Below, in pieces: positions 4,729 through 43,212 of a stretch of 43,212 nucleotides of DNA (position 1 is the stretch's first letter; the number at the start of each line of letters is the position of its first letter). The notes under the pieces are model-generated. The model did not search any database, was not told the origin of the DNA, and worked only from the letters and a program-made list of their open reading frames with translations. The DNA is taken from IMG/VR virus record IMGVR_UViG_3300048837_000811, positions 1 through 43,212 of that record; one strand, written 5' to 3'. The position numbers were made by a program, and so were the translations under genes. This DNA comes from a virus.

Positions 4729-4746
4729 TGTTGTACTCCTTTCCTT

Positions 4747-5792: not shown

Positions 5793-6391
5793 GCCGCCAC
5801 CGCCTCAATGCGCCGCTGCCGAGCAACGGCCAGCTTGATCCACGCCACGTAGTCGGCTATTTCATCTGCCGTGTAGTAGTTAGCCGCGCCAATGGCGGCA
5901 GCCTCAACCAGCCACACATCGTACGTGTGTCGTTGACAGCCGATGGTAATGTAGCCACCGGCGGCGATGGCCGTGTGGAGACCAAACGCCCCCACAGTAA
6001 ATGGCCCAACCGCCCCGCTCAGGTGGGCTCCGCGCAGGTCGGCCCCGCTCAGGTCGGCCCTGCTCAGGTCGGCCCTGCGCAGGTCGGCCCCGCTCAGGTC
6101 GGCCCCGCTCAGGTCGGCCCTGCTCAGGTCGGCCCTGCTCAGGTCGGCCCCGCTCAGGTCGGCTCTGCGCAGGTCGGCCCAGCTCAGGTCGGCTCCGCGC
6201 AGGTCGGCCCAGCTCAGGTCGGCCCAGCTCAGGTCGGCTCTGCGCAGGTCGGCCCAGCTCAGGTCGGCTCCGCGCAGGTCGGCTCCGCTCAGGTCGGCTC
6301 CGCGCAGGTCGGCCCCGCTCAGGTCGGCTCCGCGCAGGTCGGTGGTGTCACACCCCGCGTCTCGCAATCGTTGTTCGGTTTTGTCGTTCAT
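5789..6391 (-). CDS. pentapeptide-repeat protein, 200 aa
   Basis: After a short N-terminus (MNDKTEQRLRDAGCDTTD), residues about 19-128 are consecutive A-D-L-x-x pentapeptides (ADLSG, ADLRG, ADLSW, ADLRR). These form a right-handed quadrilateral beta-helix. The C-terminal 75 residues ('GYITIGCQRHTYDVWL', 'YTADEIADYVAWIK') form a domain common to phage pentapeptide proteins. Some bacterial family members mimic DNA and bind gyrase, but nothing here shows that. The DNA is a 15/30-bp near-perfect tandem repeat (about 6010-6345), so copy number may vary. Confidence 0.9.
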   Translation of the reverse strand: MNDKTEQRLRDAGCDTTDLRGADLSGADLRGADLSGADLRGADLSWADLRRADLSWADLSWADLRGADLSWADLRRADLSGADLSRADLSRADLSGADLSGADLRRADLSRADLSGADLRGAHLSGAVGPFTVGAFGLHTAIAAGGYITIGCQRHTYDVWLVEAAAIGAANYYTADEIADYVAWIKLAVARQRRIEAVAA

Positions 6392-9279: not shown

Positions 9280-10158
9280 ATGAATAAGCTACAAGCCGCC
9301 GTCGAGGGGTTCCTGGTGGGACAGGCGGGAGAGGTGTCTAAGGCTACACGCCAGTGGTATCACCGGCGCTTGCTTGACTTCGCCACGTTCGCCGGGCCGG
9401 TTGACCTGGATGACGTGACACCGGCGCTGCTACGGGCGTACCGTGCCCAGCTCGTTGACCGGGGCATGTCGCCCCACTCAGTCCACGGCTACCAGCGGGC
9501 TATCCGTCGCTTGTTCTCTTGGCTGCTCGATGAGGGGCTGGTAGATCGCAACGTCGCCCGTGACGTGCCGCTGGTCAAACTGCCGCATCAAGCGCCCAAG
9601 GCATTAACCGACGACGACCTGGACCGGCTGCTAGACCGTCTGCCGCATGAGAGCGTCAGGGACCGGGCCATCATCCTGCTACTGGCCGACACGGGCTGCC
9701 GGGTCGGTGGCTTGTGTAGCTTGACGCTGGATGCGGTGGACCTTGCTAACCGTTGCGCCACGGTCATCGAGAAAGGGCAGCGCGGGCGTCGGGTGTACTT
9801 CACCGACCTGACATCCGATACGCTGGGCCTCTATCTGGCCGTGCGGCCGGCGGGTTCGTGTCCGGCGCTGTTCCTGTCTCAGTCCGGCGCGGCGCTGACA
9901 ACCAACGGCGTGCGGCTGATGCTGGAGCGGGTCGGCAAGCGGGCCGGGGTCAAGGGACGGTGTAACGCCCACAGCTTCCGGCACGCGTTCGCCCGGTCAT
10001 TCCTTCGCAACGGCGGCAACCTTGCGGCGCTGGGCCGGATACTCGGTCATGCGCCGGGCAGCCCGGTCACGGCCAAGTATTACGCGGTGTGGGATGATCG
10101 GGAGTTACAGGAGTACCATGAACGATATAGCCCACTGGCGAACCAAACACAGAAGTGA
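9280..10158 (+). CDS. int: tyrosine recombinase integrase, 292 aa
   Basis: XerC/D-like tyrosine integrase. The N-terminal SAM-like core-binding domain spans about residues 5-90 ('ATRQWYHRRLLDFATF', 'SPHSVHGYQRAIRRLFSWL'). The catalytic domain shows the full set: Arg141 (TGCRVGGL), Lys165 (EKGQRGRR), His231 and Arg234 (HSFRHAF), His257 (LGH), and Tyr267 or Tyr268 (TAKYYAV). The 292-aa length fits the simple XerC/D type with no large arm-binding domain. The start is ATG after GAGAGAG. The gene is followed at once by the tRNA-like attP, the usual int-attP order in temperate phages. Confidence 0.95.
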   Translation: MNKLQAAVEGFLVGQAGEVSKATRQWYHRRLLDFATFAGPVDLDDVTPALLRAYRAQLVDRGMSPHSVHGYQRAIRRLFSWLLDEGLVDRNVARDVPLVKLPHQAPKALTDDDLDRLLDRLPHESVRDRAIILLLADTGCRVGGLCSLTLDAVDLANRCATVIEKGQRGRRVYFTDLTSDTLGLYLAVRPAGSCPALFLSQSGAALTTNGVRLMLERVGKRAGVKGRCNAHSFRHAFARSFLRNGGNLAALGRILGHAPGSPVTAKYYAVWDDRELQEYHERYSPLANQTQK

Positions 10159-10214
10159 AGCCGGGGACAGACAGTCCCACGCTCATGAGCGCCGGGGACG
10201 ATAGAACATGTGGT

Positions 10215-10271
10215 CTAGGGCGCGTAGGACTCATAAGCCCTAGGTCGATGGTTCAAATCCATCTGGCACCA
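10215..10271 (+). other. attP: attP core with 3' half of tRNA(CAU)
   Basis: From 10230 the sequence reads like a tRNA from the anticodon loop onward: CTCATAA (anticodon CAU), GCCCT stem strand, then GATGG-TTCAAAT-CCATC as a perfect T arm, and TGGCACCA as the acceptor end. The 5' half of a tRNA is missing, so this is not a gene. It is the identity segment that rebuilds a host tRNA-Met or tRNA-Ile2 upon integration. The phage side provides CTAGGGC (10215-10221), a 7-bp inverted match to GCCCTAG (10237-10243), like integrase core sites. The host tRNA is inferred. Confidence 0.75.
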
Positions 10272-21299: not shown

Positions 21300-23454
21300 G
21301 CTAATTGACATCATAGTCGCCGGGAAGTACACCGGGCAGGACCAGCTAGGCAAGGCCAAGCGGGACGTTGACGCCCTAGAGGGCGGGACCCAAAAGGCCG
21401 CCGGTGGGTTCCGCGCGGCCGGGGCGATGATGGGCGCGGCCCTTGTCGGTGTCGGTGTCGCCCTGGGCGCGGTCGCAGGCGCGGCAAAGTTGGCATGGGC
21501 CGAACTAGAGCGCGGCGCGCAACTGAGCCGCACGGCTGATCAATTCGACAACCTGGCCCGATCCATCGACAGCACCGCCGAGGCGATGCTGGGCAAGCTG
21601 CGCGAGGCGACGGGCGGCATGATGAGCGACGCCGCGCTGATGGAATCGGCGGCGGGCATTATGTCCCTGGGCCTGGCGAAGACCGAAGACGGCGTGGTCC
21701 GGCTGGCGACGGTTGTCGGTGAGCTGGGCTGGGACATGCAGCAGGTCATCCTGACGATGGCGAACAACTCCAAGATGCGCCTGGACGCGCTGGGGTTGTC
21801 GGTGGAAGACGTAACCGACCGGGCCAAGAAACTGCAAGAAGCCGGAATGAGCATGGATCAGGCGTTTGACCTGGCCGTCATCGAGGCCGGTGAAGCGAAG
21901 ATTAAGCTGGTAGGCAGCGCGGCTGATACCACCGCCGGGCAGATAAAGATGCTCATCACACAGTGGCAGAACGCGCGTGATGAGTTCAGCCGGTCGTTTG
22001 TTGAAGAGCTGGCCGACGACCTGGGGCTGGCGGCTGGCAATGCCGACGCGCTGGGCGAGGGGTTACAAGCGGCGGCGGGGGCGGCGGCTGAGTTTGCCGC
22101 CGGGCCGATTGGGGCAGCCCTTAACCAGATAGCGTCATTCGGCCAACAGTCGCAATTCAACAAGCTGGTTGACCAGTTCCTGGTGCTGGGCGGGTCGATG
22201 TCCGTTGCCAACGACCTGCAAGCCGATATGTTCAAAGCCAGTATGACAGGCTGGTTTGGCGACTTAGAGGCCGAGGCCGAGGTGATAGAGAGAGTAAGCG
22301 GCTACATTGACCACATCCTTGATCGTATAGCCCACGAAAACCCGGAACTCAAGTTCCTTGACATGTCGAAAGTCAAGGAACAGGCCGAATACGTAGCCGC
22401 AGCCTACACCCGCATTGGCGACGCCACGCGGGAAGTCACACAGCAGCTAGACGCCTATTACGTCATCGGCGACCGGGCGGCCAACGTCAACCGTCAGATA
22501 GCCGAGGAAACCGGCTACACGGTCTACGAACTGGCCCAGATGGGCGTAACCGCCGAAGAGGTCGCCAAGCAGCAAGAAGAAGCGGCTGAAAAGCAGCGGC
22601 AAGCGCTGGAAGAACTAACCCAACACTACCGCGACGCAGCCCTGGCGATGTCCGGCGCATTTAGCGCGGCGCTCCAGGACGGCGGTATGCCCGACTTCGG
22701 CAACGCCGACGCGATGAGGGACGCGGCGTTCGGTATGGCTGAGGCGTTCGGCTTGACTGCGCCGGTGCTGGCCGACATCGGCGTCCAGATGGGCGTTATC
22801 GACGAAAAGACGGCCGAAGCTGCGGGCAAGGCGGCGCTATTCCAGGGCGCCATGCAGGTGCTACTGGGCCAGTTGGCAAGCGGCGCGATTGACCCGACGC
22901 AGTTCACGACGGCGGTCGATGAGCTAATCACCAATCTGGAAAATAACACGGTTGTCGAGCTGCAAGTGGACCTGAAAGCACGGCAAGAGAGCATCGACGA
23001 CATCCGCAATATGGACTGGCTGCCTGACGCGGCGCAAGAGGGGCTGATCAAAAACGCCGGTCTGGAGATCACCGTAGCCGATGAGGCGCTACGGGAAGCC
23101 CTGGACCTGATTGACGGCGTGCCCGACAACGACGAGAAGATCGTCACCTTCACCCCGGAAGCCGAAGAGGTGTTTGATGTCATCGACGAGATCACCGTAG
23201 CTATCCCGGAGATACCGGGCACGGTGACGTTCGTGCCGGAAGCCTATCAGGTAGACCAGAAGATCAATGACCTGAACCGCACCCGCGTGACCATCTATGT
23301 GGACTACGTGCCGACCGGCGCGCCAACCGGGGCACCAGCGGGAGGCGGCGGTGGTGGCGCGCCGACATCGACACCGCGCGGCGGCGGCGGCAAGGGCACG
23401 TCATCGGTGGCCGAACTCATCCGCGAGATTCAGCGGGAAGGGGTGGCGTGGTAA
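21292..23454 (+). CDS. tail tape measure protein, 720 aa
   Basis: It opens MAKLIDIIVAGKYTGQDQLG, then 'KAKRDVDALEGGTQKAAGG', with a hydrophobic segment at about 40-65 (GAMMGAALVGVGVALGAVAG). Long Ala-rich helical stretches follow ('QAAAGAAAEFAAGPIGAAL'), a coiled coil ('AEEVAKQQEEAAEKQRQALE'), and a Gly/Pro-rich tail ('PTGAPAGGGGGGAPTSTPRG'). Length and position are standard for a tape measure. At about 0.15 nm per residue it predicts a tail near 110 nm. The end overlaps no gene; the next ATG follows at once. Confidence 0.93.
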   Translation: MAKLIDIIVAGKYTGQDQLGKAKRDVDALEGGTQKAAGGFRAAGAMMGAALVGVGVALGAVAGAAKLAWAELERGAQLSRTADQFDNLARSIDSTAEAMLGKLREATGGMMSDAALMESAAGIMSLGLAKTEDGVVRLATVVGELGWDMQQVILTMANNSKMRLDALGLSVEDVTDRAKKLQEAGMSMDQAFDLAVIEAGEAKIKLVGSAADTTAGQIKMLITQWQNARDEFSRSFVEELADDLGLAAGNADALGEGLQAAAGAAAEFAAGPIGAALNQIASFGQQSQFNKLVDQFLVLGGSMSVANDLQADMFKASMTGWFGDLEAEAEVIERVSGYIDHILDRIAHENPELKFLDMSKVKEQAEYVAAAYTRIGDATREVTQQLDAYYVIGDRAANVNRQIAEETGYTVYELAQMGVTAEEVAKQQEEAAEKQRQALEELTQHYRDAALAMSGAFSAALQDGGMPDFGNADAMRDAAFGMAEAFGLTAPVLADIGVQMGVIDEKTAEAAGKAALFQGAMQVLLGQLASGAIDPTQFTTAVDELITNLENNTVVELQVDLKARQESIDDIRNMDWLPDAAQEGLIKNAGLEITVADEALREALDLIDGVPDNDEKIVTFTPEAEEVFDVIDEITVAIPEIPGTVTFVPEAYQVDQKINDLNRTRVTIYVDYVPTGAPTGAPAGGGGGGAPTSTPRGGGGKGTSSVAELIREIQREGVAW

Positions 23455-30416: not shown

Positions 30417-31994
30417 ATGACGACGTTTAACGGACAGGTCACGGCGAACAGCGACGATGCACAGCAGTCCAGCGGCACCATCGATATTGCCGGATTTTCC
30501 AACAACGCCAACAGCGCCACCCAGTACATCGGGTTGCGGTTCACCAACGTCACCATCCCGCAGGGGGCCACGGTCTCGTCGGTCATCCTCCAGCCCTACA
30601 TGGTGTCGGCGGCTTATGACGACCCAGACGTGACGATCTGGGCGCAGGCAGCCGATGACGCGAGCACGTTCTCGAATACGACCAACGACATTAGCGGGCG
30701 CACGGCGACGAGCAACACGGTCACGTGGACGGCGACGGGAATCGGCACGGGATTTGCTAACTCGCCCAACCTGGCCTCGGCCGTTCAGGAGGTGATTAAC
30801 CGAGGCGGCTGGGCGTCGGGCAATGCGCTAGTCATTGTCATTAAAGGCAACAGCAGCAGCAGCGCCTTCCGCATCCGCGAGTACAACAACACGCCCAGCG
30901 AAGCGCCGAAGATTGAGATCACGTATACGGCGGGCACGTCACACGCGCTAGGGGGGTCGTCAACGGCCACCGCAAGCGTCACGGGCGCACTGAGCATCAC
31001 GCGGGGGCTGGCGGGGTCGTCAAGCAGTAGCACCAGTGTCAGCGGCGCGTTGACGGTTGCACGCGGGCTGAGTGGCACCAGCGCGGCCACGGCTACGGCT
31101 ACGGGGGCGCTGGGCGTTACACGCGCCTTGTCCGGCACGGCGGCGGCGACAGCTACGGCTACCGGCACCTTGCGACTGGCGGCGGCGCTAACCGGCACAT
31201 CGGCGGCGTCAGCATCGGCCACGGGCGCACTCGCCGTAGCGCGGCCACTATCCGGCAGCACCGCGGCCACATCGAACGCCACCGGCGCGGCGCGGCTGGC
31301 CGTGGCCCTGAGCGGCACGGCGGCGGCGACATCGAGCGCAAGCGGTGAGCTGTTCACCGAGGGGCAGGTCAGTCTGTCCGGCACGGTTGCGGCGACATCC
31401 GGGGCAAGTGGCGCGGCGAGACTGGCGGCGGCGCTATCGGGCAGCACGGCAGCGGCAACCGGCGCAAGCGGCACGGTGGCCGTGGGGCGGGCGCTGGCCG
31501 GTGTTGCGGCGGCTATCAGTTCGGCCACCGGCGCGCTGGCCGTGGCCGGGCAGATCGCGCTGGAAGGCACCAGCGCGGCGGCGAGTGGCGCAAGCGGCGC
31601 ACTGCGACTGGCGGCGGGGCTGGCCGGGCAAACGCCGGTCATCTCCGGCGCAGGTGGAGCCGTGGCCGTCAATCGCGCTCTGGTTGCCACCAGCGCGGCG
31701 GTCAGCGGGGCCACGGGCACGCTAGAGACGGCGGTCGTCCTGGTCGAGCTATCCGGCACGATCACGGCCACGAGCGGCGCTAACGCCGGGTTGACCGTGG
31801 CCTGGTATCTGAGCGCTGAGGCGACGGCGGCAACGGCGGCCTCGGCGCGGCTATCGCTCATGACGGCGCTGCTGTTTGTGGGCGCGGTGCAATCGTATGC
31901 CGCACGCGGGGCTGTGGAAAGCCCGTCGGGTAGCGGCGCAATTCATGGACCGGGGCGAACGGGCAGCGTTCGCACGTCCGGCGACATCACATAG
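30417..31994 (+). CDS. repeat-rich adhesin-like structural protein, 525 aa
   Basis: The N-terminal domain (about 1-170: 'QYIGLRFTNVTIPQGATVSS', 'WASGNALVIVIKG', 'APKIEITYTAG') resembles DNRLRE-type carbohydrate-binding jelly rolls. It is followed by about 15 near-20-residue repeats of the form LSGTSAATATATGALxVxRA up to about residue 480. The repeats are rich in Ala, Ser, Thr and Gly and should form beta-strands in a long stalk. The matching DNA (30950-31850) is a diverged 60-bp tandem repeat. It is probably a virion fibre or surface adhesin. The long reverse-strand ORF here is a shadow. Confidence 0.75.
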   Translation: MTTFNGQVTANSDDAQQSSGTIDIAGFSNNANSATQYIGLRFTNVTIPQGATVSSVILQPYMVSAAYDDPDVTIWAQAADDASTFSNTTNDISGRTATSNTVTWTATGIGTGFANSPNLASAVQEVINRGGWASGNALVIVIKGNSSSSAFRIREYNNTPSEAPKIEITYTAGTSHALGGSSTATASVTGALSITRGLAGSSSSSTSVSGALTVARGLSGTSAATATATGALGVTRALSGTAAATATATGTLRLAAALTGTSAASASATGALAVARPLSGSTAATSNATGAARLAVALSGTAAATSSASGELFTEGQVSLSGTVAATSGASGAARLAAALSGSTAAATGASGTVAVGRALAGVAAAISSATGALAVAGQIALEGTSAAASGASGALRLAAGLAGQTPVISGAGGAVAVNRALVATSAAVSGATGTLETAVVLVELSGTITATSGANAGLTVAWYLSAEATAATAASARLSLMTALLFVGAVQSYAARGAVESPSGSGAIHGPGRTGSVRTSGDIT

Positions 31995-32005
31995 GAGAGT
32001 TTAAG

Positions 32006-32395
32006 ATGGCAGGTTTCAGCACGTATTTGCAACAGAAGGTTCTGGATCATATCGGCGGCAACAGCAGCTACACCGCGCCGACGCCCTATGTCGGGCTGTA
32101 CACGGCGGCGCCGACCGACGCCGGTGGCGGCACTGAGGTCAGCGGCGGCAGCTACGCCCGCGTCAACGCCAACGCGCTGTTCGGTTCGGCGTCGGGCACG
32201 AGCATGGCGAACGATGGGGCGGTGACGTTCCCGGCGGCGACGGCCTCGTGGGGCACGGTGACGCACTTCGGCGTGTTTGACGCATCGTCAGCGGGCAATC
32301 TGCTCTATTGGGGCGCGTTGACTACCAGCAAGACCATCGGCAGCGGCGACACGGCCAGCTTTGCCGTGGGCACTCTGACGGTCAGCCTGGACTAA
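32006..32395 (+). CDS. phage tail fibre-associated protein, 129 aa
   Basis: MAGFSTYLQQKVLDHIGGNS, then 'YVGLYTAAPTDAGGGTEVSG', 'VTFPAATASWGTVTHFGVFD' and 'LLYWGALTTSKTIGSGDTAS' form a highly conserved small protein of tail and fibre regions in many phages. The function is structural but undefined. GGAG lies 8 nt before the ATG. Conservation is much stronger here than in the neighbouring repeat adhesin. Confidence 0.85.
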   Translation: MAGFSTYLQQKVLDHIGGNSSYTAPTPYVGLYTAAPTDAGGGTEVSGGSYARVNANALFGSASGTSMANDGAVTFPAATASWGTVTHFGVFDASSAGNLLYWGALTTSKTIGSGDTASFAVGTLTVSLD

Positions 32396-32406
32396 GGGGG
32401 CGCAGC

Positions 32407-32724
32407 ATGGCGCTGGCAAACGCAGTACAGGGGGCGACCCACACGCCGCAGCGCATCACGTGGTCTGATACGGACGGCGACCCGGTGAACCTCACCGGGG
32501 CCGTCCTGTCCGGGCGCATCCGGGCGATTAACGGCGGGGGCGTCGTGGACATCGCCGGGGAGCTGGACATCGTGAGTGCGCTGGACGGTGTGTTCGACTG
32601 GACATACGGCGCGGCGGACGTGGCTGAGGCGGGCGAGTACATCGTCCAGTTCACGGCCACGTTTGGCGACATGACGAAGGACCGCACGCTGAAAGAGGCG
32701 TGGACGGTCGTGGCGGCATTGTAG
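32407..32724 (+). CDS. BppU-like N-domain baseplate/fibre protein, 105 aa
   Basis: The start is ATG 32407 after GGGGGCG. The longer frame is a shadow. 'QRITWSDTDGDPVNLTGAVL', then 'IVSALDGVFDWTYGAADVAE' and 'AGEYIVQFTATFGDM', give the immunoglobulin-like pattern (D.DG.P.DLTGA....R...G......GE...... G.F......D.....G.Y...) of BppU N-terminal domains in baseplate proteins. Here the domain stands alone. Confidence 0.75.
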   Translation: MALANAVQGATHTPQRITWSDTDGDPVNLTGAVLSGRIRAINGGGVVDIAGELDIVSALDGVFDWTYGAADVAEAGEYIVQFTATFGDMTKDRTLKEAWTVVAAL

Positions 32725-32741
32725 GGGTAAGGTATTCACTC

Positions 32742-33251
32742 ATGGCTGTATCACAGACGACCATCATCCTATCCGGGTTCTTGTTATTCATGCTGGCCGC
32801 CGGGCCGGGATTGATCGGGCTGTGGTACTACCAGCGCGGGCTATCGGAGCGCATCGACGATCTGGAATCGTTGCGCCTGTTAGACGCGGCTGAGATAAGC
32901 CGGATGCACAACGAGGTCAACGAACTGCGGCGCGGCGTCTCTATCCTGTCAGCGCAAGTGCGACGGGCGGGGATGCAGCCTGAGTGGACGCCGGAAGCCG
33001 TGCCGATCATCGGGCCGTTACGCGGACAGGCCGCCGAGACGGATCGGCTTGTCACCCTGTGGCAAAACATCGCCGAGCGATTTAACAGCGAAGAGATAGA
33101 TGACCTGGCGTTTCAACTTGGCTTGCCGGAATCGCACGCGGAGACCGACGGCGCACGGGCGCGCGATCTGGTTAGTGCCGCCAAGCGCCGCGACAAGCTA
33201 GACGCGCTGACATCGTTGTGCCGCAAGCTCAGGCCGGGAGGTGGCTTTTAG
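32742..33251 (+). CDS. membrane-anchored protein with effector-associated (Death-like) domain, 169 aa
   Basis: Residues 8-29 form a transmembrane helix (ILSGFLLFMLAAGPGLIGLW). Residues 33-72 form a coiled coil ('RIDDLESLRLLDAAEISRMH'). Residues about 103-165 read LVTLWQNIAERFNSEEIDDL, 'AFQLGLPE', 'GARARDLVSAAKRRDKLDAL' and 'CRKLRP'. That is the six-helix pattern of bacterial effector-associated domains (EADs), the Death-like adaptors of STAND/TIR/caspase-type conflict systems: L...L...F...EL..L...LG ... ARDLV....R...L..L. Phage proteins with this layout are not known to me. It could be a decoy, a hijacker, or a lysogen-expressed immune adaptor. The start is ATG 32742. Confidence 0.7.
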   Translation: MAVSQTTIILSGFLLFMLAAGPGLIGLWYYQRGLSERIDDLESLRLLDAAEISRMHNEVNELRRGVSILSAQVRRAGMQPEWTPEAVPIIGPLRGQAAETDRLVTLWQNIAERFNSEEIDDLAFQLGLPESHAETDGARARDLVSAAKRRDKLDALTSLCRKLRPGGGF

Positions 33252-36115
33252 TGGCCTACAACAAAGTCTGGTATCACGCGGGCGCGCCGTGTAACGGCTG
33301 CCCCGGCATTGGCGACATGTGGCGACAGTTAGACGCGGCGGGCGTGCCGTTCGGCGTGTACAGCGTCGAGGGCGCCGGGCTGCTGGTGGAAGCGGCGCGT
33401 TATCGCAAGGCCGAAACGCTCATCTACCGGATGCTGGCGACGGATGTGGCCGAGTACCATCTGTCCCCGGCTGAGGCGGCGGCGCGGGCCTGGGCGACAA
33501 CCATCGCCAGAATGCCGCCGGAACTCGTGGCGCTGAAAGACCGGCTATGGATCGAGATCGGCAACGAGCAGGACAAACAGCGGGCTGACTGGCTGGGCTG
33601 GTACTATGTCGAGCTGGCCGGGCAAGCGGCGGCAAGCGGGTGGCGTATCTGCGGGCCGGGCTGGGCCACGGGCGAACCGGAGCCGGAGCACTGGCAGACG
33701 CCGGGCTGGCTGGCCTATCTGCGGCTATGCGCGGCGCGTCCCGACCGGCTGGCCGTGACGGTGCATGAGTACAGCCTCAGCGCCGATGAGATCATGGAAA
33801 CGTCGCCCTGGCTTGTCGACCGCGTGCGGTTTCTCTTCGAGGCGTGCGACGCCCACGGGATAGGCCATCCCACGGTGTTTGTGACTGAGGCGGGCTGGAC
33901 GCATAACGACTTGCCCACGACCAACAAGGCGAAGGCCGACATTGCGGAACTGGCGACACTGTATGCCCACTACCCCACCGTCAAAGCGGCGTTTCTCTGG
34001 TCGATCATCGGCGGCGGGGACAAGAAGACGCTGGCCGCCGAACTAAACGCGCTCATGCCCTGGTTGACTGAGTACAGCATCACGACGCGGTTCCCCGATG
34101 TGGATCCGCCGCCCGTGGTTGTGCCGCCGCCTGACCCGGATAAACCTATACCTATGAGTAACAACTTACTGAAAAACGGCAGCTTTGAAGACGGCTGGAC
34201 CGATAGCACCGGCTACAGCACGACGCAGAACCCGCGCCACTGGACCGTGGAATGGAATAACGGCGCGGCGTTCGTCAATCCGTATGGCGGGCAGCCCTAC
34301 GAGCTGGGCGAATGCGTCCACAAGAGCAAGGCGCTATTGCCCGCCGCCGAACGCGATGTGTTCATCTGGGATGGCAACTGGACCCTGAAGGTATTCGCCG
34401 GGGGCCGGTCGTTTTGGGCGCGGCTCAAACAGACATTGGAGCTACCCGCCGGACGCTACCGGCTGAGTACGCCGGTCTGGGTTGACACATACAAATGGGA
34501 TGGCGGCAAGGATTATGACGTTGACCCGCGCCAGACCGAGTGGCAGGTGAAGGTCAACGGCGCGGCCCTGGCCGAGTGGGTGCCGCTGGTCGCCGGGCGA
34601 AAGAACACTCCGGGCATTGACTTCGACCACGCGGGCGGGGCGGCCGATATTGCCGTTCACTTTCGCTGCAACTGGGCGATCTCAAACAACCTGTGGCTTG
34701 ACGGCTGGGCACTGGAGCGGGTGGCGGTCGCGCCGCCGCCTGAGCCGCCGAAGCCGCCCACACCTGAGCCGGGCAAGCATAAGGCAATCATCCTGAAAGT
34801 TCCCCAGGACGTGGCCCTGAGCGAATGGCTGGCGGCCGCGGCCTACGCCTTCCGGTTCCGGCACACGATGACGGCCAGTCATGATGATATGGCTACGCTG
34901 CTACAGGGCGGCAACGCCGACAGCTACGTGAAGCTGGCCTGGGCCGGGCGGCAGGAGGAGAGCGGGCAACTGGTCGACGATCTCGGCTACCGCTGGGAGC
35001 ATGTGCCGGAGTTGGACGCAGGACCGCTGGACGGCTTGCGGTTGGGGCGGCCGTTTGCCTGGCGCTACGTGCTGACCAGCGCCTTCGACGCGGGCCGCAG
35101 CTACGGCAAGCACGAGGGCGCGGACTACGACGTTGTGGGCGGCGCGGCCGATAACGCGGCCGACGTGCTGTGCCTCTATGACGGCACGGTTGACCGGTCG
35201 CTGGACACGACCGGCGGCTATGGCTCCTACGTCCGCGTCAAGCATGATCGCAACGGCCACGTGTTCTATACCCGCTATGCCCATTTGGACAAACGCTATG
35301 TAGAAGCCGGACAGTGGGTGAAGCAGGGGGACGCGCTGGGCGAGGTGGGGACCACCGGCAACGTCACGGGCGAACACGTGCATATCAACCTCGAAGTGCC
35401 CGGCTACGGGCTGGGCGGCTACGTCGTGGCCGACGTGGTGGACCCGGCGCCGTACATCCCCAGCGGGGCGGCGCTGCCGTTGTATCCGGTGGCGGCGACA
35501 ACCACCATCGACTTGCTGCCATACCTTAAGGGTGATCACAAGCGACAGTTTGATATGGGCCACAACGTCAAAGGCGGCGGCACGCAAACGGTCCAGGTAT
35601 GGCACTTGGATGCAGCCAACTGGCTTTACATCAAGGGCGAAGGCGGCGAATACGAGCGGCTGGGGTTACGGCCGTTTCAGGGTAAGGAGTGGATCTTTCG
35701 CTTCGATGACACGAGCGAATCCCCGACGCGGTTCTATGCCCACTACCTGCCAAACGGCGGGCCAATCGGAGCGCCCTGGTTGCCGCGTTATGCGACCGTT
35801 GGCGAGTGGTACACGACATCTAAGTTTGTTCAGCATTACCTGAAAGCCGGTTGTGCCAAGCAGGACGGCGGGGATGTGGTAGACAAACTGCGGGTGATGG
35901 CCGGTCCTCGATCGGTCACCTATCCTCAAAGCGGTGTGACATTACAGGATGTCATCACTATCGAGTGGTCAGGCGGCGAGCAATATGACTTCGCGGTCGG
36001 CCGCGGCTGCGTTGCGTTTCGTGATGCAGACCGCACGTTCTGGTTTATCGGTGACCTGGAGGGGCGACCCGACAAGGCTTACAAGAAGCCGGGTTGCATC
36101 CCTTTGGGGTGGTAA
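33251..36115 (+). CDS. giant lysin: GH-like glycosidase plus M23 endopeptidase, 954 aa
   Basis: The start chosen is GTG 33251 (TAGTG overlap; GGGAGG 9 nt upstream). Residues about 1-280 form a TIM-barrel glycoside hydrolase: 'IWIEIGNEQD' places Glu106 as acid/base, and 'VFVTEAGW' places Glu213 as nucleophile. After a Pro-rich linker, residues 305-495 are a carbohydrate-binding jelly roll (NLLKNGSFEDGW). Residues about 600-735 are a LytM/M23 peptidase with HEGADYD (His621, Asp625), YAHLD and HVH (His709, His711), the zinc ligands and catalytic His. A further module (750-954) ends the protein. It probably cuts glycan and peptide bonds of the host wall. The holin follows. Confidence 0.88.
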   Translation: MAYNKVWYHAGAPCNGCPGIGDMWRQLDAAGVPFGVYSVEGAGLLVEAARYRKAETLIYRMLATDVAEYHLSPAEAAARAWATTIARMPPELVALKDRLWIEIGNEQDKQRADWLGWYYVELAGQAAASGWRICGPGWATGEPEPEHWQTPGWLAYLRLCAARPDRLAVTVHEYSLSADEIMETSPWLVDRVRFLFEACDAHGIGHPTVFVTEAGWTHNDLPTTNKAKADIAELATLYAHYPTVKAAFLWSIIGGGDKKTLAAELNALMPWLTEYSITTRFPDVDPPPVVVPPPDPDKPIPMSNNLLKNGSFEDGWTDSTGYSTTQNPRHWTVEWNNGAAFVNPYGGQPYELGECVHKSKALLPAAERDVFIWDGNWTLKVFAGGRSFWARLKQTLELPAGRYRLSTPVWVDTYKWDGGKDYDVDPRQTEWQVKVNGAALAEWVPLVAGRKNTPGIDFDHAGGAADIAVHFRCNWAISNNLWLDGWALERVAVAPPPEPPKPPTPEPGKHKAIILKVPQDVALSEWLAAAAYAFRFRHTMTASHDDMATLLQGGNADSYVKLAWAGRQEESGQLVDDLGYRWEHVPELDAGPLDGLRLGRPFAWRYVLTSAFDAGRSYGKHEGADYDVVGGAADNAADVLCLYDGTVDRSLDTTGGYGSYVRVKHDRNGHVFYTRYAHLDKRYVEAGQWVKQGDALGEVGTTGNVTGEHVHINLEVPGYGLGGYVVADVVDPAPYIPSGAALPLYPVAATTTIDLLPYLKGDHKRQFDMGHNVKGGGTQTVQVWHLDAANWLYIKGEGGEYERLGLRPFQGKEWIFRFDDTSESPTRFYAHYLPNGGPIGAPWLPRYATVGEWYTTSKFVQHYLKAGCAKQDGGDVVDKLRVMAGPRSVTYPQSGVTLQDVITIEWSGGEQYDFAVGRGCVAFRDADRTFWFIGDLEGRPDKAYKKPGCIPLGW

Positions 36116-36153
36116 TAGGAAGTGTTTTTAACGCACTAGGAGGTGCACGAACG

Positions 36154-36411
36154 ATGGAAGGCAAATCAACTCTGGTAACGGTGATCTCGGTGCTGAGCGC
36201 GGTGATCGCGCCGATTGCGGCGCTGCTGGTGGCCTACGGGCTGCTGTCGCAGGAAGAGAGCGAGCTATGGGTGGCCCTGGCCGTGGCCCTGCTGGGCGCG
36301 CTGGGTTCGGTCGCACCGGCGCTCATCGGCCGCAACTACAATGACAACAGGGCGGCCGTCGTCACTGAGGCGATGAGGACCGGCAACATAGAATCCATTC
36401 AGAGGTTCTAG
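36154..36411 (+). CDS. holin, 85 aa
   Basis: The start is ATG 36154 with GGAGGT 9 nt upstream. Two hydrophobic helices: about residues 7-31 (LVTVISVLSAVIAPIAALLV) and 39-60 (LWVALAVALLGALGSVAPAL). A charged C-terminus ('NDNRAAVVTEAMRTGNIE') follows. The position directly after the lysin and before a terminator, and the two-helix layout, indicate a class II-type holin that lets the lysin reach the wall. Confidence 0.85.
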   Translation: MEGKSTLVTVISVLSAVIAPIAALLVAYGLLSQEESELWVALAVALLGALGSVAPALIGRNYNDNRAAVVTEAMRTGNIESIQRF

Positions 36412-36417
36412 ATACGA

Positions 36418-36453
36418 GGGGCGGGGTGGTGGTGGCTGCCCCGCCCCGATTTG
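36418..36453 (+). terminator. intrinsic terminator after the holin gene
   Basis: GGGGCGGGG (36418-36426) pairs perfectly with CCCCGCCCC (36439-36447) around a 12-nt loop, then GATTTGCTT. It probably ends the main late transcript. Confidence 0.8.
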
Positions 36454-36490
36454 CTTATCCCATCGAATTCGACGGGATTGGGGGTGACAA

Positions 36491-37378
36491 TTGTCCACAT
36501 GGACGGCAGAGCCGTTAGCGCGCAACGTGCTGCGGATTACGTTCGATGACGTGCGGTCGGGCTGGGAGGGGTGGGTGTTGCTTAGAAGCGACGCTCATCA
36601 CGATAGCCCGGCCAACAATGAGGCCAAGGAACGCGCCCACTTGGAGGCAGCCAAAGAGCGCGGCGCGCCGGTGCTGGACTTTGGCGATTTGTTCGATGTC
36701 ATGGGCGGCAAGTTCGACCCGCGCAAGATGGAGAGCGGCGTCAAGGCGCGGCACAAGGTGGACCACTACTTCGACGCGGTGCTGGATGACGCGGCCGAGT
36801 TCTATAGCCCGTATGCCGATCACATCGCGCTGCTAGGCGCGGGCAACCATGAGACAAGCGTCCTGAAGCATCACCAGATGAACCTAACGCACAGCCTGAG
36901 CCGGTCGCTGAAACGGGCGGCCACGCGTGAAGACATAGCGCAGGTGGGCGGCTATGGCGGCTATGTGTTCCTTCAGTTCGCTATTCAGAGCACGGTCAAG
37001 TACACGGTCAAGGTGAAGTACCACCACGGGCACGGCGGCAGCTCCCCCGTGACGAAAGGTGTGATCGGTGCCCAACGCCGGGCGGTGATGTATCCCGACG
37101 CAGACATTGTGGTTACGGGCCACATTCACAACGGTTGGGTAACGGCGCACCCGCGAGAGCACGTCAACAAGCTGGGCGTCATTACCAGTATGCCGCAGAT
37201 TCACATTAGCTTGCCGGGTTACAAGGATGATTGGGCCGACGGCAGCGCGGGCTGGGCGGTGGAAAAGGGCTTCGGGCCGAACATGACCGGCGCGTGCTGG
37301 TTGCATCTGGAGTACCAGCACTATCAAGACGGCGTGCCGCCGATAGCGGTGACGCCGATCCCTCTGGGGTGGACATGA
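36491..37378 (+). CDS. calcineurin-like metallophosphoesterase, 295 aa
   Basis: Metal-binding motifs in order: SDAHHD (residues 33-38, D-x-H), DFGDLFD (63-69), GAGNHE (116-121), HHGHGG (178-183) and TGHIHNG (209-215). This is the full set of the dimetal phosphoesterase fold. Phage homologues act on nucleotides or nucleic acids. The substrate here is unknown. The start is TTG at 36491, because no in-frame ATG lies near and GGGGGTG stands 5 nt before. It lies beyond the holin terminator, with no clear promoter, so it depends on readthrough or a weak promoter. Confidence 0.88.
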   Translation: MSTWTAEPLARNVLRITFDDVRSGWEGWVLLRSDAHHDSPANNEAKERAHLEAAKERGAPVLDFGDLFDVMGGKFDPRKMESGVKARHKVDHYFDAVLDDAAEFYSPYADHIALLGAGNHETSVLKHHQMNLTHSLSRSLKRAATREDIAQVGGYGGYVFLQFAIQSTVKYTVKVKYHHGHGGSSPVTKGVIGAQRRAVMYPDADIVVTGHIHNGWVTAHPREHVNKLGVITSMPQIHISLPGYKDDWADGSAGWAVEKGFGPNMTGACWLHLEYQHYQDGVPPIAVTPIPLGWT

Positions 37379-42881: not shown

Positions 42882-43212
42882 TCAGGAGCCGTAGCCGTCG
42901 CCGGAGCCGTCGCCGTTGCCGTAGCCGTTGCCGTTGCCGTCGCCGTAGCCGTAGCCGTAGCCGTCACCGTCGCCGTTGCCGTAGCCGTCGCCGGAGCCGT
43001 CGCCGGAGCCGTCGCCGGAGCCGTCGCCGTAGCCGTAGCCGGAGCCGTCACCGTCGCCGTTGCCGTTGCCGTTGCCGTTGCCGTCGCCGTAGCCGTAGCC
43101 GTCACCGTCGCCGTTGCCGTAGCCGTCGCCGGAGCCGTCGCCGGAGCCGTCGCCGGAGCCGTCGCCGTAGCCGTAGCCGGAGCCGTCACCGTCGCCGTTG
43201 CCGTTGCCGTTG
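42882..43212 (-). CDS. Gly-X repeat protein, 3' part (gene split by the contig ends)
   Basis: This is the C-terminal end of the gene that starts at 327. The minus-strand frame reads Gly-Asn, Gly-Asp, Gly-Ser and Gly-Tyr dipeptides and ends in GDGYGS followed by TGA at 42882-42884. Positions 42948-43212 repeat the left-end coding sequence. The circular join keeps the reading frame (327 + 66 nt = 131 codons), which supports both circularity and a real gene. An overlapping Ala-Thr-Pro frame with a GTG start (42860-43189) is a shadow of the same hexamers. A strong hairpin follows at 42788-42813. Confidence 0.72.
   Translation of the reverse strand, partial: NGNGNGDGDGSGYGYGDGSGDGSGDGSGDGYGNGDGDGYGYGDGNGNGNGNGDGDGSGYGYGDGSGDGSGDGSGDGYGNGDGDGYGYGYGDGNGNGYGNGDGSGDGYGS
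42885..43212. repeat. GCCGNN hexanucleotide array, right end of contig
   Basis: Continuation of the left-end hexamer array. Positions 42948-43212 duplicate 1-265 exactly, so only 42885-42947 is unique. The 138-bp higher-order period seen at the left end is visible here as well. The array stops at 42884, where the minus-strand Gly-X reading frame meets its TGA stop codon. Confidence 0.95.

Follow-up and report, generated by a model that had tools for sequence, protein, structure and literature searches.

Introduction

Effector-associated domains (EADs) were predicted by comparative genomics to wire up apoptosis-like immunity in bacteria through homotypic contacts, under a coupling rule by which copies of one EAD occur on a core protein and on effectors (PMC7159879). 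EAD7 is among the EADs said to recruit effectors (Kaur et al. 2020, PMC7159879) and is also carried by STAND NTPases (Kaur et al. 2021, PMC8195603). The available portions of these two papers mention no phage member among the EAD7 proteins of described conflict systems, and the available text of papers on effector-associated domains, which also include PMC10910872, reports no phage EAD. A CARD-NLR-like system, LypABC, is reported to be required for lysis and gene transfer agent release in Caulobacter (PMC13236601). Adaptor-only death-fold proteins include vFLIP of herpesviruses and the pyrin- and CARD-only proteins (available parts of PMC3775265 and PMC9371342).

Here we describe an EAD7 protein encoded by a phage (IMG/VR record IMGVR_UViG_3300048837_000811, positions 1-43,212; this whole stretch of 43,212 nucleotides is called the window). 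Its domain resembles Pfam EAD7 (PF19960) in scoring over the curated cut-off, in being small and predicted all-helical, and in having no enzyme match. Unlike Pfam EAD7 as described, the phage form stands alone in a lysis neighbourhood, is partly membrane-anchored, and has no second EAD7 in its record. LypABC, in the text available, is likewise a death-fold adaptor system tied to the lytic release of phage-like particles, but it is a host-encoded peptidase/ATPase system, whereas here a bare adaptor lies in a phage lysis cassette. With Rz-type i-spanins the phage protein shares an N-terminal membrane helix, a coiled coil and a place next to a lysin; it differs from them in its C-terminal EAD and in a placement of lysine and arginine (K/R) that suggests the opposite topology. 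The EAD family is already known, and the phage-encoded, membrane-anchored, lysis-cassette form was not found in the literature searched: no phage EAD appeared among the matches listed, in a search that covered titles and the beginnings of abstracts, with preprints and most subscription journals outside it.

A phage membrane protein ends in an EAD7 domain

The gene and its parts are as follows.

32742..33251, + strand: gene of the EAD7 protein, 169 aa (N-terminal transmembrane helix, coiled-coil helix, C-terminal EAD7); the start is backed by that of the homologue in phage contig L005
32763..32819, + strand: predicted transmembrane helix, residues 8-26 (hydropathy and charge count only)
32883..32966, + strand: best coiled-coil heptad window, residues 48-75, a strong pattern (heptad analysis, AlphaFold2 helix)
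33057..33236, + strand: EAD7 domain PF19960, residues 106-165 (profile match, predicted structure)

Against a gathering cut-off of 32 bits, the C-terminal 71 residues matched the Pfam EAD7 profile at 42.5 bits (E 5.6e-11) and the whole 169-aa protein at 39.8 bits, with residues 106-165 aligned end to end to profile positions 1-62 of 62; a translated search of the record recovered the domain at 41.6 bits. None of ten controls (one reversed and nine shuffled versions of the C-terminal piece) matched EAD7. The original prediction, made from the sequence, had called the C-terminal part an EAD or Death-like domain; the family call is borne out, and the profile searches returned EAD7 and no confident spanin- or holin-associated match. 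Other profiles gave little: the Death effector domain reached E 0.061, under its own cut-off, NCBIfam yielded weak matches only, PADLOC gave none, and the best weak PHROGs matches fall on the coil (phrog_10452, E 0.031; phrog_2658 'hol-like chemotaxis', E 0.038). Profile searches found no significant enzyme family on the protein. The domain is accordingly a small one of EAD7 kind, C-terminal and all-alpha, with four helices in the model and no enzyme family match.

EAD7 occurs at one place only in the record, 33057-33236 (whole-record search, E up to 1). As far as tested, this agrees with the further proposal that the phage carries only the adaptor, since the record has one EAD7 and no EAD1, and the 169-aa protein has no effector domain. 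At 21931-22071, within an ORF of 720 codons, a second and weak hit was discarded because the whole-record profile search did not identify it as EAD7.

That the frame truly codes for protein is shown by a homologue of 62.7% identity at the equivalent place in L005, and a twin contig, 99.95% identical, has the gene intact. Between the window and L005 the EAD gene has a pN of 0.27 and a pS of 0.75, the latter saturated, and pS is 0.41 for the upstream 105-aa gene, 0.49 for the lysin and 0.29 for the holin. Because its pS lies above those of all three measured neighbours, we read the EAD gene as an exchanged allele.

The single N-terminal membrane helix and the coiled coil of the original prediction were both recovered, the former by hydropathy (residues 8-26, predicted) and the latter as a strong heptad pattern at 48-75 within a predicted helix spanning 5-75. 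The hydrophobic stretch from residue 8 has a mean KD19 of 2.08 in the window protein and 2.43 in its L005 relative. K/R residues number 0 before the helix and 2 in the 15 residues after it in the window protein, and 0 before and 3 after in the L005 protein; in the protein of a further contig, L027, the EAD side of the helix has three within 15 residues, and the six residues past the helix have one. Under the positive-inside rule, this placement would put the EAD in the cytosol in all three, the reverse of an Rz-type spanin. The 15 residues that follow the helix carry a net charge of -1 in both the window and the L005 protein, so the topology call draws solely on the K/R counts, and we take it as an indication that the EAD is on the cytosolic side.

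The EAD7 gene belongs to the lysis cassette

The window record is that of a temperate tailed phage, with an integrase, a terminase, an SPP1-type portal, and major head and tail proteins. An identical hexamer array, (GCCGTA)n, occupies both ends of the record (1-311 and 42887-43210), as though a circular or near-complete genome had been split, in assembly, at a single repeat array. After the integrase, at about 10209-10271, we noticed by eye a stretch resembling the 3' end of a tRNA, from a CAT-type anticodon arm through GGTTCAAATCC..CACCA, which is likely the attP core. Two further repeat regions were seen: 22 copies of a 15-bp repeat at 6012-6342, giving an AQVGP repeat in an ORF of 522 codons that may not be genuine, and, at 30417-31994, a tail-region protein of 'SGTAAATATATGAL'-type repeats (by eye), whose L005 analogue has different repeats. 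The features that place the EAD gene are listed below.

9280..10158, + strand: tyrosine integrase, the mark of a temperate phage
32006..32395, + strand: Gp80-like fibre/head protein (PF23140, E 1.2e-45)
32407..32724, + strand: 105-aa tail-region gene upstream of the EAD gene, kept in L005 and, more distantly and by eye, in contig L007
33249..33253, + strand: TAGTG, the EAD stop and the lysin GTG start with one base in common
33251..36115, + strand: lysin with a Peptidase_M23 domain, its start overlapping the EAD stop
36094..36411, + strand: holin (phrog_565, E 3.1e-7), true start probably internal
36418..36447, + strand: terminator-like hairpin of 13 pairs directly after the holin, weak

The EAD gene is part of the lysis cassette; neither this nor the recurrence of EAD7 in such neighbourhoods of other phages figured in the earlier account, which had correctly placed the gene between baseplate/fibre genes and the lysin. 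The neighbours found are fibre- or tail-type genes (PF23140) before it and an M23-peptidase lysin after it. In L005 the junction at the equivalent place reads TGATG. A Shine-Dalgarno-like GGGAGG lies within the end of the EAD frame, and we read it, by eye, as a ribosome-binding site. A consensus scan found no promoter-like site on the EAD strand in 31800-36600, and the four terminator-like sites in the region are near chance (2.8, sd 1.7, in shuffles). The tail, EAD, lysin and holin genes can be read from the sequence as one putative late operon. Serine-peptidase or ATPase partners of the LypABC type are absent beside the EAD gene, whose neighbours are the fibre/tail genes, the M23 lysin and the holin.

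EAD7 recurs beside phage lysis genes in several architectures

Exactly one EAD7 was found in eight of nine phage records examined (E up to 1), each time in a lysis-gene neighbourhood, and EAD1 in none of the nine. Proteins over the EAD7 cut-off come from the window, L005, L007, L008, L009, L012/L015 and L027, with a maximum of 83.7 bits; the window (39.8 bits) and L005 (38.6 bits) have the lowest scores of the set. One record with a related lysin, L006 (IMGVR 3300048057_000049), has no EAD7 match in its 52.6 kb.

Three architectures are represented: transmembrane helix-coil-EAD, with an N-terminal anchor, in the window and L005; EAD with no transmembrane helix; and EAD followed by a C-terminal anchor in L027, where the domain reaches the 83.7-bit maximum. 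The EAD7 proteins of L007, L009, L012/L015 and L008 lack a clear membrane helix (the three for which KD19 was computed reach 1.12 at most, and the L009 protein is identical to that of L007), so tethering is not general.

Gene order in L007, L009, L012/L015 and L008 runs from a holin-like membrane ORF through two coiled-coil-type ORFs and EAD7 to the lysin. In L007 and L009 the EAD start overlaps, as ATGA, with the stop of the ORF before it, and in L012/L015 the intact lysin begins 1.8 kb after the EAD. In L027 a holin-like membrane ORF ends 14 bases before the EAD start, and after the EAD come a short ORF and a C39-like peptidase; the cluster sits between the terminase and an ORF that looks, by eye, like an integrase, not after tail genes. 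Coiled-coil genes near EAD7 include L007 3860-4177 and L027 8392-8643. The lysins carry M23 domains in the window, L005 and L015, Amidase_2 in L007 and a C39-like domain in L027; those of L008 and L009 have no Pfam domain and were identified as lysins by alignment to the window lysin. The holin-like ORFs of L007-L009, L015 and L027 were called from membrane pattern, those scanned having no significant family match. At L015:7181-10325, an L007-type lysin beginning runs into unrelated sequence and a second, M23-type lysin follows, an apparent lysin replacement beside the EAD cassette (by eye). At L008:4594-4968, ATA stands in the EAD frame where L007 and L009 have their ATG start, and the first listed start, GTG at 4744, falls inside the domain.

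How the contigs were reached bears on these counts. L005, L007, L008 and L009 were first reached via the lysin, which favours EAD-lysin adjacency and leaves a small bias-free count: in the window, L012 and L027, which are free of this bias, the EAD is in a lysis neighbourhood in three of three. EAD-led scans, with queries from L007 and its kin, returned five contigs, of which three had already been reached by lysin and two, L012 and L027, were first reached in this way; P0001-led scans added only the twin contig and L005, itself a query row. The EAD genes of L007 and L009 are identical to each other and that of L012 is 81% identical to them, which reduces the set to about four separate lineages (window/L005; L007/L009/L012; L008; L027). 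Because the viral scans used short peptide patterns, members will have been missed.

The predicted fold aligns best with death-like domains

AlphaFold2, run on a shallow alignment of six phage sequences, modelled the full-length protein with a single helix at 5-75 (pLDDT about 65) and with residues 101-169 well predicted (pLDDT 80-94); folded alone, the EAD domain reached pLDDT 89.5 and pTM 0.79. DSSP assigned four helices of at least 4 residues to the domain model, vs six in the death-fold bundle; in this detail the model differs from the original expectation of six helices.

Foldseek gave no significant match for the EAD model (best E 1.9; best viral E 0.33). On re-alignment of its candidates, the leaders were 8ss1 (Z 7.4, rmsd 1.9, 67 of 76 residues) and 9cs7 (Z 7.3), both solved bacterial death-like/CARD chains from Azospirillum, ahead of the NOD1 CARD (Z 6.6), the Ankyrin-G death domain (Z 6.2) and vFLIP (Z 5.3). 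The full-length model gave the same leaders together with a Lysobacter death-like domain, 8srz (Z 6.6). These bacterial domains are the closest solved folds to the phage EAD model; the phage EAD differs from them in its roughly 10-16% sequence identity and its four predicted helices. Nine of the 15 rows listed at Z of at least 5 are death-fold and six are not, with 8jol chain C taken as a CARD by reading, and every neighbour scored below Z 8, a range where common arrangements can score. Given these Z values and the non-significant Foldseek result, the family assignment is founded on the sequence profile; the modelled fold agrees with EAD7 and lends it moderate structural support. A SAP-like fold was set aside: 2rno (Z 5.4) and 1h1j (Z 3.4) stand further down the list, and Pfam gave EAD7 and no SAP match. 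A sequence search of the PDB returned no match for the window protein.

The top-ranked viral structural neighbour of the EAD model was the BFVD model A0A2H4P853 (Pseudomonas phage ventosus, 63 aa), with TM scores of 0.68 (query) and 0.81 (target), rmsd 1.5 and a non-significant E of 0.33; judged from the models, this named phage may encode a small death-like protein.

Searches for hosts and further relatives

Three protein queries found no significant relative among 50,697 cultured phage records (best E 2, 3 and 0.2), and positions 20000-43212 of the window had no near DNA match among cultured phages. On plasmids, the L007 query returned nothing at E 1, and the L027 query nothing better than places in 14 Agrobacterium records with E of 0.04-0.1. 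Genome contigs were scanned twice, and neither a prophage nor a host EAD came to light. The lysin-motif scan found no relative; the sole locus from the EAD scan, L023, was rejected as a chance 14-residue hit, with a long ORF on the other strand; its genome, an Opitutia MAG, has no EAD7 at E 0.001. Across 387 genomes of that phylum EAD7 was found in none (E 1e-4), which, with the controls silent, indicates rarity at most; the phylum has no known link to the window phage, and the survey says nothing on its host. Relatives of the terminase are scattered over many hosts.

Discussion

The EAD7 identity, the anchor, the cassette position and the recurrence are computed results. Our preferred reading, held tentatively, is that the phage makes a late, membrane-tethered, adaptor-only protein that would bind host EAD7 homotypically, probably as a decoy. 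Under this model, a death-fold-like EAD7-family adaptor would be made among the late genes with the lysin and holin, its EAD would face the cytosol, and EAD-to-EAD contacts would join it to host EAD7 carriers, whether effectors or core proteins such as STAND or VMAP types, which would lie in conflict systems of multicellular bacteria. Since each phage record has a single EAD7, the coupling rule implies that any hetero-partner would be the host's, and an adaptor held at the membrane without an effector would most simply act by capping or sequestering host EAD7 assemblies. The host death programme would then be held off until virions are finished and the phage holin and lysin act.

Such a protein would be the counterpart, in a bacterial virus and in the lysis window, of adaptor-only viral inhibitors such as vFLIP. 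The likeness would be one of working: vFLIP is virus-made, as the phage adaptor is, and the phage protein too is an adaptor without an effector. Unlike vFLIP, it has a membrane anchor and is not a family member by sequence; inhibition is suggested by analogy.

Several observations favour the decoy. There are two distinct anchoring modes, N-terminal and C-terminal, and K/R is richer on the EAD side in all three anchored proteins; the protein is under constraint, with a pS above its neighbours; and the closest folds to the model are bacterial death-like/CARD domains. Against it, the host EAD7 partner is an assumption (the genome scans gave no host EAD), tethering is not general, topology was called from K/R alone, and the window and L005 have the lowest EAD7 scores. 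Co-expression with lysis genes, moreover, would be late for counter-defence and fits the lysis-linked alternatives at least equally.

That linkage lends weight to two of the alternatives. One, which we regard as doubtful though serious, is that the protein draws on host EAD7 signalling, or senses it, so as to aid or time lysis, either by recruiting host EAD7 peptidases or pore formers to the membrane or by letting a defence alarm trigger early lysis via the holin and lysin. EAD7 does accompany lysins of different kinds (M23, Amidase_2, C39-like), the L027 cassette lies between integrase and terminase yet has EAD7, and EAD stop and lysin start overlap in the window and L005; the lysis of Caulobacter in gene transfer agent release offers a precedent in LypABC, on the available text of PMC13236601. 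However, a phage with a holin and a lysin of its own, as the window phage is, needs no host lytic effector, and LypABC is host-owned, with its CARD on the peptidase, whereas the phage adaptor is bare. Rather unlikely, in our view, is a purely phage-internal role with no host partner, the EAD serving as homotypic oligomeriser of an XhlA- or antiholin-like membrane lysis accessory protein. One EAD per phage suffices for self-assembly, and such a role would suit the association with lysins and coiled-coil genes (L007, L027) and the sub-significant match of the window coil to phrog_2658 'hol-like chemotaxis' (E 0.038). The coil and membrane part of the L027 protein, which we take to resemble XhlA, had no match in Pfam. 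But the non-EAD parts tested gave no significant lysis-accessory family, and an internal use leaves unexplained why an immune-adaptor domain that is rare (absent from all 387 genomes surveyed in one phylum) is used in three architectures.

Two other readings fare worse. Lysogenic conversion or superinfection exclusion, in which the prophage would express the protein, plug it into the host EAD7 network and arm that network against other phages, we consider improbable. The integrase and the place of the gene would suit it, the region between tail and lysis genes being a usual site of morons, but the late-operon position makes expression only in lysogeny less likely: the strand carries no promoter-like site in 31800-36600 (consensus scan only), the lysin start overlaps the EAD stop, and the L027 EAD lies among lysis genes. 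It is very improbable that the protein is an Rz-like inner-membrane spanin or an ordinary structural protein that scores as EAD by chance. Spanins do combine a single N-terminal helix with a coiled coil and lie next to the lysin, and the net charge of -1 after the helix would suit one; yet K/R lies after, not before, the membrane helix, EAD7 scores over its cut-off in several phages and in none of the ten controls, and profile searches found no spanin family. Spanin, holin-accessory and structural readings alike were set aside with no significant family, the nearest being phrog_2658 on the coil (E 0.038).

That a virus keeps a bare adaptor next to its lysis genes gives independent evidence for the importance of EAD wiring during infection, and the phage EAD offers a natural minimal EAD ligand for finding host partners and testing the adaptor model. 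It also links death-fold immunity with phage lysis, two fields for whose connection no precedent other than LypABC was found. If the decoy reading holds more widely, and we extend it no less tentatively, phages of bacteria with EAD-based suicide may recurrently carry a death-fold adaptor in the lysis cassette, on varying anchors, that would plug into the host EAD network and block or redirect host death at the membrane, so that the phage times that death; it would be a prokaryotic parallel to viral FLIP and pyrin-only proteins. With EAD7 found near the lysis genes of other viruses that are only distantly related, the finding suggests viral interference with the signalling of bacterial cell death at about the time of lysis.
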